Both the position numbers and the translations under genes were made by a program. The notes below the pieces were generated by a model. The model searched no databases and had not been told where the DNA came from. It saw only the letters and a list, made by a program, of their open reading frames with translations. 33,442 nucleotides of DNA, taken from a virus. Where the stretch lies: positions 1 to 33,442 of IMG/VR virus record IMGVR_UViG_3300042326_000834; one strand, 5' to 3'. Below are positions 1 through 12,395 of this stretch, piece by piece; position 1 is the stretch's first letter; each line of letters starts with the position of its first letter.

Positions 1-118
1 TAGCGGGTCAGGCAAGGCGTAGCGGGTCAGGCAAGGCGTAGCGGGTCAGGCAAGGCGTAGCGGGTCAGGCAAGGCGTAGCGGGTCAGGCAAGGCGTAGCG
101 GGTCAGGCAAGGCGTAGC
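1..118. repeat. 19-bp tandem repeat array at the left edge
   Basis: Six full head-to-tail copies of a 19-bp unit (TAGCGGGTCAGGCAAGGCG) run from base 1 to 114, followed by the start of a seventh. The copies are identical by eye. The array touches the window edge, so its true copy number is unknown. Open frames across it give only Pro/Asp or Arg/Leu/Thr repeats and are not credible genes. Confidence 0.97.
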
Positions 119-199
119 GGGTCAGGCGGGTCAGGCGGGTCAGGCGGGTCAGGCGGGTCAGGCGGGTCAGGCGGGTCAGGCGGGTCAGGCGGGTCAGGC
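119..199. repeat. 9-bp tandem repeat array (GGGTCAGGC)n
   Basis: Nine perfect copies of GGGTCAGGC follow the 19-bp array directly. The 9-mer is contained in the 19-bp unit, so the array probably arose from it by deletion of the AAGGCGTAGC part followed by slippage expansion. No coding function is supported. Confidence 0.97.
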
Positions 200-771
200 G
201 GGGCGCGGTTTCGATCGATTCCACCCCTGTTCCGGCCTTGTCCCGGCCTTGTGTCAGCGTATTTCTTTGGTTGGGACACGCAAGTGCTTGATTCACAAAG
301 TAAAAACACGGTTTGTGTCGGTGTGTCAGCAAAAACGGGACAAGGCGCGGGAAATGCAGCGCAAAAATGGGGAGCAAGGCAGAGACGCGGCAAGTGCCGA
401 AAAAGCTCTAAAAACTTTTGCCGCCCGTCCGTTTTGCTCTTTTTTCTCTTTTCTCTCTTTTTTCTATTTACTTATTCTATAACTATCTAATAGAAATCAA
501 TAACTTACACACCCCCTATCCCCTAAAATCCCGTGTCATATGTAAACTTTCCCCACACAAAACCTGACACAAACTTTCCGTAACCCATTGTTTTTATTAA
601 ACTTTTTTTGTGTCAGCATTTCCGACCCCCTGACACAAGCGACACACCGGCCTGACACAAGCCGCACCCCGCCCCGCGTAGCTCTAAAAAATATTTCGCC
701 GAAGGGGTTCCATTAAATAAAGAAAGGTTGTCTAATACTCGCGTCCCCTATCTACACCGGAGCAAACGAAC
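200..771. other. Non-coding, origin-like or operator-like region
   Basis: There is no credible gene here. The segment holds a pyrimidine-rich and AT-rich tract (about 421-530), a cluster of CTGACACAA/TTGTGTCAG nonamers (249-257, 564-572, 608-616, 630-638, 652-660), and AAACTTT repeated at 544-550, 571-577 and 599-605, about 27-28 bp apart. Repeated protein-binding sites beside easily melted DNA are typical of iteron-type origins, but also of multi-site operators upstream of an early operon. A TAATAC at 733-738 could be a -10 element for the gene at 772, but no convincing -35 accompanies it. The function is inferred; the repeats are directly visible. Confidence 0.6.
564..660. repeat. Phased CTGACACAA iteron-like array
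   Basis: Exact nonamers CTGACACAA start at 564, 630 and 652 on the + strand, and the reverse complement TTGTGTCAG starts at 608. The starts are 44, 22 and 22 bp apart, so all four lie on one 22-bp register (about two helical turns). A further exact reverse copy lies at 249-257. Near matches occur at 313-321, 321-329, 531-539 and 641-648. Such phasing implies one protein binding the same DNA face repeatedly, as a replication initiator or a repressor would. The partner is not identified; HTH proteins encoded further right are candidates. Confidence 0.8.
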
Positions 772-4449: not shown

Positions 4450-4655
4450 ACGCGCCCCCGCCGAAAACCCGACAAGATGCTTTGGTGCTTGCGTTGGTAC
4501 TTGCGATCACGGCTCCATCAGACGCGCATTCGAGGGTGGTTACAGAACTCGCAGAACAGCTTTCGGTCGGCATGACCGAGCTTGAGGTTGAACGGTGCAA
4601 GAAACGCGCATTGAAAGAGTTGAAAGAGTTGAAAGAGTTGAGGATGCAAGCATGA
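4446..4655 (+). CDS. Small hypothetical protein with KEL repeat, 69 aa
   Basis: ATGA overlap with the previous gene. Residues 1-25 contain a hydrophobic segment (ALVLALVLAITAP) followed by SRVVTELAEQLSVGMTELEVERCKKRA, which has HTH-like spacing. The tail repeats LKE through a 9-bp tandem repeat (TTGAAAGAG three times at 4611-4637), extending a helix by whole turns. Function unknown. Confidence 0.65.
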   Translation: MNAPPPKTRQDALVLALVLAITAPSDAHSRVVTELAEQLSVGMTELEVERCKKRALKELKELKELRMQA

Positions 4656-4768
4656 ACGAGTCCGATCTTGACTACATCGTTGCGTTGCAAGCGGTGATTG
4701 CAGCACAGGCCAACATCATCCGTGCGATGAATGAGCAGTTACAAATTTTAATGGAGCTACAGCGATGA
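4652..4768 (+). CDS. Small helical peptide, 38 aa
   Basis: Starts by ATGA overlap and ends by ATGA overlap with the next gene. The product is one predicted amphipathic helix (LDYIVALQAVIAAQANIIRA...), suited to a coiled coil. Not recognised. Support comes only from the double coupling. Confidence 0.55.
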   Translation: MNESDLDYIVALQAVIAAQANIIRAMNEQLQILMELQR

Positions 4769-4992
4769 ACGAGACGAACGAGACGAACGAGACGAACGAG
4801 ACGAACGAGATCCCGAAAGATTGGTGGGTTCCGATCGACAGCGACGAGGCGTGGATTCGCCAACAGGTATTCGACTACGAGCGCGAGTTGTACGAGCTGC
4901 GTGAGTGGTGGGTGCGACCGCAACAGTTGACCCGACAGCTTGAATTGCCGTTCGACGAGCCGAAGCAACCGCGCCCCTACGCGCCGTTCTGA
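4765..4992 (+). CDS. Hypothetical protein with N-terminal (NET)n, 75 aa
   Basis: The start codon runs straight into a 9-bp tandem repeat (AACGAGACG, four copies plus a part, 4768-4810) that encodes repeated NET triplets. The rest is Trp- and Glu-rich (KDWWVPIDSDEAW..., YELREWWVRPQQLTRQLELPFD). The LELPFDEP motif near the C-terminus resembles a beta-clamp binding motif (QLxLF-type), a speculative link to replication. It is the last gene before the promoter at 4999. Confidence 0.7.
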   Translation: MNETNETNETNETNEIPKDWWVPIDSDEAWIRQQVFDYERELYELREWWVRPQQLTRQLELPFDEPKQPRPYAPF

Positions 4993-5047: not shown

Positions 5048-5335
5048 ATGTCTTACGACACGGTTTTTGAAACGATGCTGTCGGGCATCAAGGTTGAGGT
5101 TGGCGCAGAGTGCGAACGAGGTGGCGAGGAGGTTGACATCGAGCAGGTTTTTCTGCTTGCCGTGTGGACGCCGAAAACTGAAAAGGCTCCGGCAGGGTTT
5201 TGCGAACTCGACACGCCGGTTCTGCTACCGTTTGATGCGAACTGCGACATATACGATGAGGCACTAGCCATCGTCAAGGAGAACAACGCGCTGCGACCAC
5301 ATTTTGATCAGTTGGACTACGCAGGGCGGTACTGA
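5048..5335 (+). CDS. Hypothetical protein, 95 aa
   Basis: First gene of the promoter at 4999, with a perfect AGGAGG ribosome site. The acidic product contains VFLLAVWTPKTEKAPAGFCE and ends ALRPHFDQLDYAGRY; several strands followed by a helix are likely. Not recognised. Its stop overlaps the VRR-NUC start (TGATG), so it may be made together with that nuclease. Confidence 0.8.
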   Translation: MSYDTVFETMLSGIKVEVGAECERGGEEVDIEQVFLLAVWTPKTEKAPAGFCELDTPVLLPFDANCDIYDEALAIVKENNALRPHFDQLDYAGRY

Positions 5336-5616
5336 TGACCCCTGAGGCAAAGGTCAAAGCGAAGGTAAAGAAAGTTTTGAACGACATCGGTGCGTACTAC
5401 GCCATGCCTGCGACCGGCGGGTATGGTTCGAGCGGCGTACCGGATTTTCTGATCTGTCACCACGGCAAGTTCGTGGCGGTGGAGTGTAAGGCAAACGGTG
5501 GGAAGCCCACCGCGCTTCAATTGAAGCATCTCGATGACATCCGCAAAGCAGGTGGCATCGCATTGTTGATTGATGAAACAACCGTAGAGACCCTACGCAA
5601 GGAGTTAGAGACATGA
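5335..5616 (+). CDS. VRR-NUC domain nuclease, 93 aa
   Basis: A stand-alone VRR-NUC nuclease of the PD-(D/E)XK superfamily. The motif order is visible: helix with E4 near the start, SSGVPDFLI giving D37, then VAVECKANGGKPT giving E50-x-K52, and Q62 in the following helix. In this family these residues bind the metal and cut DNA; phage members resolve branched DNA, like the nuclease domain of FAN1. The length is typical for a phage single-domain version. The ATG overlaps the upstream stop (TGATG). Confidence 0.92.
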   Translation: MTPEAKVKAKVKKVLNDIGAYYAMPATGGYGSSGVPDFLICHHGKFVAVECKANGGKPTALQLKHLDDIRKAGGIALLIDETTVETLRKELET

Positions 5617-6263
5617 CTATTAGTGCAAAGATTCGCCGTTATCTGGCAAACGGCGCGAGTCCCGAGTACATCGCCAAGCAACTTGGCATCAGCAAGAACC
5701 GCGTCTACACGGTGCGTTGGAAGGACGCGAATAAGACGGTCAAGCCTAAGAAAGTTAAGTCGGTTGAGAAGCAGGTGCATGACATCAAGGCGGAGGCGTG
5801 GAAGGAGCGCAATCCGTGGTTTGGCGTCAACGAGCAGAAGACCGCTGCGGCACTTGCCTATCACGATGAACTTTTGAATGACGGGATTGACCCGACGTCC
5901 GACGAGTATTGGGACAAGGTGGACGCGAAGTTTGGCTCGAAGTCCAATAAGAGACAGGCCCGCCTGACACCGACTCAAGTTGAGCTTGCCAAGAAGCTTG
6001 GCATCAGTAATAAGCAGTACGCACGTGAAATCACCGCGCTGCTCGACTGTTCCAAGACCGACCCCGTGAATCACCCTGAGCACTACAAGGCCGGTGGCAT
6101 CGAGACCATCGACTTCATCGAGTCCAAAGATTTGAACTATCGTCTGGGCAACGTGGTGAAGTATGTGAGTCGTGCGGGTAAGAAGGACTCCGATCCCGTG
6201 CAGGACTTGGAGAAGGCTGCGTGGTACCTGAAGCGCGAGATCGACGCGAGGAAGGGCGCATGA
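5613..6263 (+). CDS. HTH protein with C-terminal DUF3310 domain, 216 aa
   Basis: Residues 12-36 form a helix-turn-helix ([20 protein letters not shown]), followed by a Lys-rich linker. Residues 119-145 ([20 protein letters not shown]) look like a second HTH. The C-terminus (about 150-212) is a DUF3310 domain: [20 protein letters not shown], then [14 protein letters not shown] and [17 protein letters not shown]3310 is widespread in phages and has been called a nucleotide-kinase-like protein, without a firm function. Fusion to two HTH-like segments suggests a regulatory role, which is inference. The ATG overlaps the VRR-NUC stop, and the stop overlaps the next start. Confidence 0.88.
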
Positions 6264-6712
6264 ATTCTTTAGTAAAAGATTTACAAGACAAACATAAGGA
6301 TATTCTGCTTGCTCCCGTAGACGAACTTTACCTCACGTTCCGCACTACAAATTGTTTGGTGGGAGAAAAAATTAAGTACGTTGGAGATCTTGTACAGCGA
6401 ACTGAAAGAGAATTGTTATTGATCCCAAACTTGGGTAAGAAGTCTTTAGATGAGATAAAACAAGTATTGGCGGCTTTCAATTTGAGTCTAAACATGAAGA
6501 TGTCGGAGTGGCCTCCAAAGGAAATGGAGTCATCACAGGTTGATCCTAATATAAAAGGTCAGGTTAAGAGCAGTCTTAACTACGCGCTGCGCGTTGCTGC
6601 TGATAAAGCACACGCTAATTGCGTGAGCAATGACCCTGATAAAGCACAGGTATACGTCAGTATCATCTCAGACATTTTGTATTTGTTGGGAGAGGAGCTG
6701 CCGAAGCCATGA
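6260..6712 (+). CDS. Stand-alone RNA polymerase alpha C-terminal domain homologue, 150 aa
   Basis: Residues 16-86 match the C-terminal domain of bacterial RpoA along its length: [58 protein letters not shown], then EWPP. The N-terminal assembly domain is absent. The residues that contact UP-element DNA in E. coli (R265, N268, C269, G296, K298, S299) correspond to R28, N31, C32, G59, K61 and S62, all kept. The sigma-contact residue E261 corresponds to Y24. A helical extension of about 60 residues follows. The ATG at 6260 overlaps the upstream TGA; an in-frame ATG at 6221 lies inside the previous gene. The gene looks more AT-rich than its neighbours, hinting at separate acquisition. Possible roles are decoy for promoters or activators, or a co-regulator working with the phage sigma-like protein at 11727. 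Confidence 0.9.
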
Positions 6713-7365
6713 TACGCCCCATCCAGTTAAGTCGCCGTCGCTTGAGCGAGATAGTCTGGCAAATCATCGACGAGAAGGTTGAGATGGACTGGAGCAAAAT
6801 CCAAGACATCGTGCAGGGGCAGCAACATCTCAGGGAACAGGCTGACTACAACACAGGGTCGTTGGGTGAGAACGATGCGGGGGACTTGTACAAGATAGTC
6901 AAGTTCTTTCAGCCCGAGGTCATTGCCGAGGTAGGTACATTCATTGGTGTATCTACTTTGGTGATGGATTTGGCGACAGGAACTACCGCGCAGATTCGCA
7001 CGTGTGACGTATCAAATAGGATTGATCTTGCTCTGTATCCAGAACAAGCCAAACTGATTGAGCAGTATTTTCACACACCTTCTCATGAAATGTTTGCTGA
7101 CATGGCAGAGGAAGGATTGAAGGTCGATCTGGTCTATCTCGACGGTCGCTTGAGTCAGCAGGATGAAGAGCCGCTCAACAAAATCTTGGCTCCGCACACG
7201 GTCTTTGTGCTTGATGACTTTGAGGGTATCGAGAAGGGTGTCGCCAACGCGATGATGTTGGAGTCACCGGGGCGTGTGCTCATCTATCCGCGCCATTATG
7301 GCGGGAAGACTGCTATGTCCATCCCGTTGTCCCTGCTACAAGTCGTAGCACAGGAGGCCGTATGA
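6709..7365 (+). CDS. Class I SAM-dependent methyltransferase (Methyltransf_24-like), 218 aa
   Basis: Residues 72-90 carry the SAM-binding motif I ([15 protein letters not shown]), residues 138-147 VDLVYLDGR corresponds to the IDGxH motif of CmcI and Methyltransf_24 type O-methyltransferases, and [11 protein letters not shown] is the next strand. The N-terminal 60 residues are helical and specific to this protein. The group is often found beside glycosyltransferases and methylates sugars or small molecules, which fits the two glycosyltransferases downstream. Histidine of the IDGxH motif is replaced by Arg-Leu here, so the substrate or activity may differ. ATGA overlap at both ends. Confidence 0.82.
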
Positions 7366-11489: not shown

Positions 11490-11734
11490 CCGACGAACCA
11501 CTTGACCCGAACACGCTGTACGCTGACGGCTTTGAGGACGCATTGATCGGTCTTGGGTGGCAACACACCAAACTGCTAGCCGTTTACGACTACAAAAAGT
11601 GCGTAGAGATACTGATGACACGCGAAGAGATGACGCACGAAGAGGCTATCGAGTGGATGGAGTACAACGTGGTCGGCTCATATGTCGGTGAGTACACGCC
11701 GATCTTTGTTATAGGAGGAGACGAACATGAGTGA
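11486..11734 (+). CDS. Hypothetical acidic protein, 82 aa
   Basis: Start taken at ATG 11486, which overlaps the upstream TGA and follows GGGGGAGC; the frame is open back to 11453, inside the upstream gene. The product has NTLYADGFEDALIGLGW and CVEILMTREEMTHEEAIEWM, predicted helices, and a YTPIFVIGG strand near the end. It is likely a conserved phage protein without known function. It overlaps the sigma-like gene by 8 bp, so the two may be coupled. Confidence 0.78.
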   Translation: MTDEPLDPNTLYADGFEDALIGLGWQHTKLLAVYDYKKCVEILMTREEMTHEEAIEWMEYNVVGSYVGEYTPIFVIGGDEHE

Positions 11735-12395
11735 CTATAGAGTAAAGATTTCGGTGTCGAACGCTCGCATTCGTAGGGCTGTTGAAGCGGCGGGGTATCG
11801 TTCAGTGCTTCAGATGTGCAAGTTGAATGGGTTGCAGATTACGCCCACATTCAATCTCGTGAACATGAAGCAGTCCCCGCTCACCAAGAACGGTAAGTGG
11901 CGCAAGACGGTGCTTGATCTGGCAGATACGTTAAATGTGTTGCCGGACGACTTGTTCAACGAGCGGCAGAAAGTGCTCACGCTTGGCAAGAACACCAGCA
12001 GCAGGGATGTGACTGAAAGCGAGATGCTGGCGATTGCGGAACAGTATGTGCAAGACGACAGACTTGAAGATTTACAGGACAACAGCGCGGTGCGTGAGAT
12101 TGCCGAAGAGCAAGTTACAAAACTGTTGAACAGCGAAATTCTTGATGTATTGTCTCCGCGACAACGAGAAGTGTTGGAGATGCGTTTCGGGTTTGACGGT
12201 TCTCCCGGACGTACCTTGGAAGAGATAGGTCTAAAGTTAGGTGTACATCGTGAGCGCGTTCGGCAGATTGAAGGCAAGGCTCTTCGTAGGATTCGAGCAG
12301 TTGGTGGCCACGCTGAAGAAGCGTCTCGCCGAGGTTTTGGCGAGAGATCCAAACGAATACGAGAACTTAAAGAGTTGGTATTGGAGCATGATTAA
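11727..12395 (+). CDS. Sigma-70 region 4 protein with N-terminal HTH, 222 aa
   Basis: Residues 131-191 match region 4 of primary sigma factors: ILDVLSPRQREVLEMRFGFD (4.1), TLEEIGLKLGVHRERVRQIE and GKALRRIR (4.2, the -35 reading HTH). Region 2, which binds the -10 element and melts DNA, is missing, so it is not a full sigma factor. Residues 10-80 form an XRE-like HTH (RIRRAVEAAGYRSVLQMCKL, then LADTLNVLPDDLF). The tail after 191 diverges from host sigma: where E. coli sigma70 has R603, which contacts alpha-CTD, this protein has Gly by ungapped alignment. AGGAGG precedes the ATG. It probably binds -35-type DNA or the beta-flap of host polymerase, either redirecting or blocking it. Confidence 0.9.
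   Translation: MSDYRVKISVSNARIRRAVEAAGYRSVLQMCKLNGLQITPTFNLVNMKQSPLTKNGKWRKTVLDLADTLNVLPDDLFNERQKVLTLGKNTSSRDVTESEMLAIAEQYVQDDRLEDLQDNSAVREIAEEQVTKLLNSEILDVLSPRQREVLEMRFGFDGSPGRTLEEIGLKLGVHRERVRQIEGKALRRIRAVGGHAEEASRRGFGERSKRIRELKELVLEHD

Follow-up and report, generated by a model that had tools for sequence, protein, structure and literature searches.

The C-terminal domain of the RNA polymerase alpha subunit (alpha-CTD) carries the 261 and 287 determinants, which form the surface for contacts with sigma and a number of activators. In the E. coli domain, R265 and N294 enter the minor groove of the DNA, while the backbone contacts are made by K291 and K298 (PMC7822876). The phage T4 enzymes Alt and ModA both modify Arg265, and polymerase that has been modified by ModA does not interact with UP elements, whilst Alt raises some T4 early promoters and leaves host growth unaffected (PMC2988021), so that loss of the contact between Arg265 and UP elements need not mean shut-off. 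In Bordetella, an excess of RpoA lowers activator-dependent genes, for which sequestering of the activator BvgA is the proposed cause (PMC7742992). The databases already contain phage proteins that carry the label RNA polymerase alpha C-terminal domain, and a genome paper mentions one of them as an annotation (PMC9127768), but no functional study of any phage alpha-CTD was found in the open-access literature.

The window analysed in this study is the whole of a virus record of 33,442 bases, in which an ORF running from ATG to TGA and surrounded by phage genes encodes a protein of 150 amino acids (Table 1). Its start codon overlaps the stop of the preceding gene, and the following gene starts at position 6709, overlapping its stop. 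Residues 9–71 match the Pfam family RNA_pol_A_CTD (PF03118; E 9.4e-22, 77 bits against a cut-off of 23.8), and the sequence matches in the PDB are all RNA polymerase alpha subunits, with the E. coli alpha-CTD placed first (1coo, 1.3e-25, residues 5–89). These E-values exclude a chance match, and residues 9–90 are a true alpha-CTD standing alone in a phage protein. The NCBIfam RpoA models are matched only in their C-terminal third, far below cut-off; the N-terminal assembly domain is thus absent as judged by these models, and the protein is not an RpoA alpha subunit. A stand-alone domain of this kind had been proposed in a sequence-only reading of the window, and the profile search agrees with that proposal, placing the protein in RNA_pol_A_CTD and not in another helix-hairpin-helix family.

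Table 1. Coordinates of the alpha-CTD gene, its parts and the other features of the window considered in the text.
Feature	Position	Strand	Basis or remark
Stand-alone alpha-CTD protein, 150 aa	6260..6712	+	ORF, Pfam and PDB matches; tail-bearing orthologues L001–L005
alpha-CTD (residues 15–87) with R265/N268/C269/N294/G296/K298/S299 equivalents	6302..6520	+	Alignment and AlphaFold model
Predicted helical hairpin tail, lineage-specific (residues 96–143)	6545..6688	+	AlphaFold model; relatives within the lineage only
Recently exchanged cassette, 89% DNA identity to L004/L005, including the last part of the preceding gene	6054..6723	+	Block limits, dS
Upstream gene, HTH-like N-terminus and DUF3310; stop overlaps alpha-CTD start	5613..6263	+	Domain matches
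Small nuclease, phrog_93 type	5335..5616	+	Lies beside the alpha-CTD gene of L006 and of L167 as well
Sigma-70 region 4 protein without regions 2 and 3; possible, non-obligate partner	11727..12395	+	Pfam/profile matches

Bacterial contamination was ruled out for the window. The two "phage" matches opened for this check, L018 (MT839913) and L019 (MT835508), are filed as bacteriophage and hold a bacterial ribosomal-protein and rpoA operon, and are therefore contamination themselves. Padloc assigned the alpha-CTD protein to no defence family.

The AlphaFold model of the protein lies 0.8 Å (rmsd) from E. coli alpha-CTD chains, with TM scores of 0.93–0.95 when normalised by those chains, and this fit includes 3n97, in which the E. 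coli domain is seen with sigma region 4 on UP/-35 DNA; the Caulobacter alpha-CTD on AT-rich DNA (9zum) is also matched at 0.8 Å. In alignment to E. coli, the residues previously read as intact (R265, N268, C269, G296, K298 and S299) are all kept, as is N294, and the equivalent of R265 is R28. Other positions have changed, with K291 replaced by Leu, K271 by Val (Ala in the relatives), E261 by Tyr, D259 by Glu, V287 by Arg and R317 by Lys. With R265, N294 and K298 kept and K291 lost, the main groove contacts are retained and one backbone contact is lost, whilst the face for sigma and several activators is altered, the 261 determinant by Tyr for E261 and Glu for D259. The 261 determinant is a functional surface, and belonging to the alpha-CTD domain does not depend on it. 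The changes at positions 261, 271 and 291 mean that DNA binding is better supported than activator mimicry. The suggestion made from the sequence alone, that a free domain could compete both for UP elements and for activators, therefore fares unevenly: the protein could plausibly compete with the host polymerase for UP elements, but competition for activators is weakened by the Tyr at E261 and by the partial change in the 287 determinant.

A related explanation is that the free alpha-CTD would serve as a decoy, soaking up activators or alpha-targeting enzymes, for instance those with which rival phages modify Arg265. The target residue and the fold are intact, and both the T4 enzymes and the proposed sequestering of BvgA offer precedents, but the 261 and 287 faces are altered in this protein and variable across phages, and fusions with sigma region 4, described below, would be left unexplained. 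A decoy is therefore considered improbable.

Stand-alone alpha-CTD proteins are common in IMG/VR, where motif scans found 78 contigs with an alpha-CTD motif and full RpoA in none of them; the ORFs range from 69 to 271 amino acids, a few being cut by contig ends, and one contig (L155) is a chance match. The Pfam profile cut-off was passed by all 50 of the comparison records. Since the search motif fixes P293, N294, L/F295, G296, K298, L/F300, E302 and I303 and narrows position 299, conservation at these positions is uninformative, but positions 265 and 261 lie outside it. Of 48 non-redundant phage rows, 46 keep R265; the remaining two are the chance match L155 and one truncated where its contig ends. 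Glu or Asp stands at position 261 in 28 of the 48, versus all of the 33 rows in a bacterial set which is biased by its own search pattern, although 261 and 265 lie outside that pattern also. As R265 is kept while 261 varies, the DNA face is what phage alpha-CTDs keep, and the presence of R265 in every interpretable phage alpha-CTD indirectly supports retained DNA binding in the window protein.

The phage proteins also differ in what is joined to the domain. In L135, L140, L147 and L152 (also L165), a helix-turn-helix of the sigma region 4 type and an alpha-CTD are found in one chain, with both Pfam domains above their cut-offs in the L135 family. A 230-amino acid phage protein in L006 and L007 has two tandem alpha-CTDs, and other helix-turn-helix parts have been added to some of the alpha-CTDs in the motif contigs. 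For these proteins as a group, the simplest view is that the domain would bind A/T-rich minor grooves ahead of promoters while separate from polymerase, and that whatever is joined to it would supply another grip or a partner.

Beyond its alpha-CTD, the window protein had been claimed to carry a new helical tail, and the model gives a confident two-helix hairpin there, with helices at residues 96–122 and 126–143 (pLDDT 80–86 in the whole-protein model); when the tail was folded alone from the single sequence, the hairpin was retained with a mean pLDDT of 87. A search for relatives, suggested at the same time, recovered the tail in the ORFs of five further IMG/VR contigs of the lineage (100, 99, 99, 86 and 86% identity), but phage alpha-CTDs do not carry it in general. 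Pfam, PHROGs, INPHARED phages, IMG/VR and PDB folds yielded no relative from beyond the lineage: the profile search gave no convincing match (best PHROG E 0.24), and the fold search of the PDB gave no significant one. On these comparisons, the tail is limited to this lineage. An added stretch, helical by eye, is seen in several unrelated phage alpha-CTD proteins (e.g., L034, L037 and L133).

The GC content of the alpha-CTD gene is 0.41, against 0.545 for the window. Relative to L004/L005, dS is 0.14 for this gene, compared with 0.86 and 1.70 for the two preceding genes and 0.94 for the DNA polymerase, and this difference, together with the high-identity block listed in Table 1, indicates recent exchange between phage lineages; the gene is thus an AT-rich cassette that has moved between phages along with the end of the preceding gene. 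The overall dN/dS ratio, from 34 differences, is 0.47; the tail alone gives 0.27 and the domain 0.73, the latter from only 11 differences, which suggests, but does not prove, that the gene is under constraint. As for its ultimate donor, a scan of genome_contigs for peptides such as KKSLDEIK was uninformative, beta- and gamma-proteobacterial RpoA being mostly without such peptides, and the comparison was instead taken from 399 sampled Pseudomonadota genomes, in which the closest alpha-CTDs share at most 65% identity with the protein. The gene is therefore not a fresh host copy. In the tree, the window protein and its close relatives are placed beside phage L171 and one bacterial row from these genomes (supports 83 and 90), most of this short tree being unresolved, and a single clade for phage alpha-CTDs was not rejected (p-AU 0.20 on 74 columns).

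The foreign base composition, and the few substitutions available for the selection test, leave some room for the gene being a passenger, that is, a recently acquired host fragment without function. However, the reading frame is intact over its whole length in six contigs, which fall into two sub-lineages, and the dN/dS values and the distance from the sampled bacterial genomes also argue against this; it is regarded as very unlikely.

The alpha-CTD gene sits among early and replication-type genes. DUF3310 and the nuclease are both found near alpha-CTD genes in L006, where they adjoin the tandem alpha-CTD gene, and in L149 and L143, and the nuclease alone in L167. They lie nearer to the alpha-CTD than uniform placement would give (p about 0.01), which is only moderately above chance. 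A fixed operon of the three genes was considered, and is only partial, with DUF3310 in 8 of 50 comparison records with an alpha-CTD and the nuclease in 15 of 50. This setting, and the fusion of the domain to a MazG-type enzyme in Ruegeria phage V16, would suit a generic DNA-binding module, engaged for example in replication or repair and without a role in transcription. Yet early phage genes cluster anyway, most of the records lack these neighbours, and the protein shares more identity with RpoA than would be expected of a repurposed generic module, so that such a role is thought rather unlikely.

Elsewhere in the window, a protein of 222 amino acids has sigma-70 region 4 at its C-terminus and is without regions 2 and 3; a further match is to the C-terminus of MzaA, which is sigma-like and belongs to the MZA anti-phage system. 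An obligate partnership with the alpha-CTD protein was ruled out because L003 and L005 keep the alpha-CTD but have no such gene at the corresponding place, and because, in the stretches retrieved from other contigs with an alpha-CTD, the sigma-4 helix motif that was searched for occurs only inside the alpha-CTD ORF itself.

UP-like matches number 13 in the window, against 6.7 ± 3.8 expected, and seven of the 13 lie at 585–703 within a leader (451–770) that is conserved in relatives. UP elements spread across the whole phage genome were rejected, the excess being weak and clustered in the leader, and a promoter scan of the window found fewer sites than in shuffles. The sequence CTGACACAA is present in five exact copies (249-, 564+, 608-, 630+ and 652+; window 249–660) and absent from the rest of the window; the copies lie in and beside the A/T-rich leader (451–600, GC 0.33), in a region conserved in relatives, and look like an iteron or operator cluster. 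Other repeats include tandem arrays at the left end (window 1–202; a 19-bp unit × 6.7 and a 9-bp unit × 9.6) and 9-bp in-frame repeats at 4611–4641 and 4767–4810, which encode (KEL)n and (NET)n tracts within small ORFs.

The leader matches, its conservation, the sigma-4 protein in the same window, and the fusions of sigma region 4 to alpha-CTD in other viruses could indicate a phage promoter regulator. Such a docking or activating factor would work chiefly at A/T-rich control DNA of the phage itself, partnered by host polymerase or by the sigma-4 protein, and would not act mainly as a competitor at host promoters. The clustering in the leader may, however, only reflect A/T content, the sigma-4 gene does not lie at this place in L003 and L005, and the sigma-touching residue E261 is Tyr. 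This explanation is possible, though on the whole doubtful.

The explanation favoured here, tentatively and with slightly less than even confidence, is that the protein is a transcription-takeover factor which binds A/T minor grooves upstream of promoters and counters the polymerase's own alpha-CTDs. A proteobacterial-type alpha-CTD would have been cut free of polymerase and joined to a phage-specific helical hairpin; the domain would grip narrow, UP-element-like A/T minor grooves upstream of strong promoters via R265, N294 and K298, whilst the hairpin would pair two copies or hold a phage or host partner, and at host promoters the free domain would displace the polymerase's own alpha-CTDs, lowering UP-dependent transcription. 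In favour of takeover are the identity and fold of the domain, its retained minor-groove residues, the R265 pattern across phages, the recurrence of bivalent forms (the tandem alpha-CTD, and sigma region 4 with alpha-CTD), the early gene setting, the position of the Bacillus phage Goe8 alpha-CTD as fifth gene, and the T4 and excess-RpoA precedents. Against it, two lysines that assist DNA contact in E. coli, K291 and K271, have been lost, the domain dN/dS is based on 11 differences, T4 Alt acts on the same residue with no simple shut-off of host promoters, and the tail helices are not clearly amphipathic. A single free alpha-CTD binds UP DNA weakly, and the takeover model therefore needs high dosage or a dimer, the latter being only putative.

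A broader and more speculative proposal, which we hold to be possible but unlikely, is that phages have repeatedly taken the alpha-CTD, together with sigma region 4 in some cases, from host RNA polymerase and turned these parts into proteins that read the DNA upstream of promoters, either free or fused and in many cases bivalent. These would form a widespread class of takeover factors, in which the window protein would be dimeric, its hairpin pairing two alpha-CTDs like the two arms of the polymerase. If the free domain binds UP elements, a function would be given to a large set of annotated, unstudied phage proteins, and capture of the polymerase's upstream contacts in trans would become testable.

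In comparison with known systems, the window protein is like the bacterial RpoA C-terminal domain (PF03118; E. coli 3n4m, 3n97) in sequence (about 61–67% identity), fold and main DNA contacts, but is without the assembly domain or polymerase linker, has the E261Y, K271V and K291L changes and carries its own helical tail. A stand-alone alpha-CTD is shared with uncultured Caudovirales entries, Rhodococcus phage Finch, Mycobacterium phage Mithril and ORF 40 of Erythrobacter phage vB_EliS-L02, but these have different added parts and 17–36% identity (in the fold search, where listed), and none was found with a tested function. Annotated phage alpha-CTDs are therefore already known, and what is new in the window protein is its tail; of greater interest are the variety of forms, the R265 pattern and the fusions with sigma region 4. 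Two cultured phages also carry the domain. In Goe8 it lies at the C-terminus of a 210-amino acid protein (gp005), with two matching places in the record, in what would be, by analogy with the terminal repeats of SPO1, a host-takeover region. In V16 it is fused to a MazG-type pyrophosphatase in gp23 (L017:5932-6798), which is annotated only as a pyrophosphatase. T4 Alt and ModA hit the same contact, that of alpha Arg265 with UP DNA, during takeover (PMC2988021), but are enzymes that modify host alpha and share no homology with the window protein; if the free domain does bind UP elements, phages would have a means of promoter control in which they provide a duplicate of one piece of polymerase and leave the enzyme itself unmodified.
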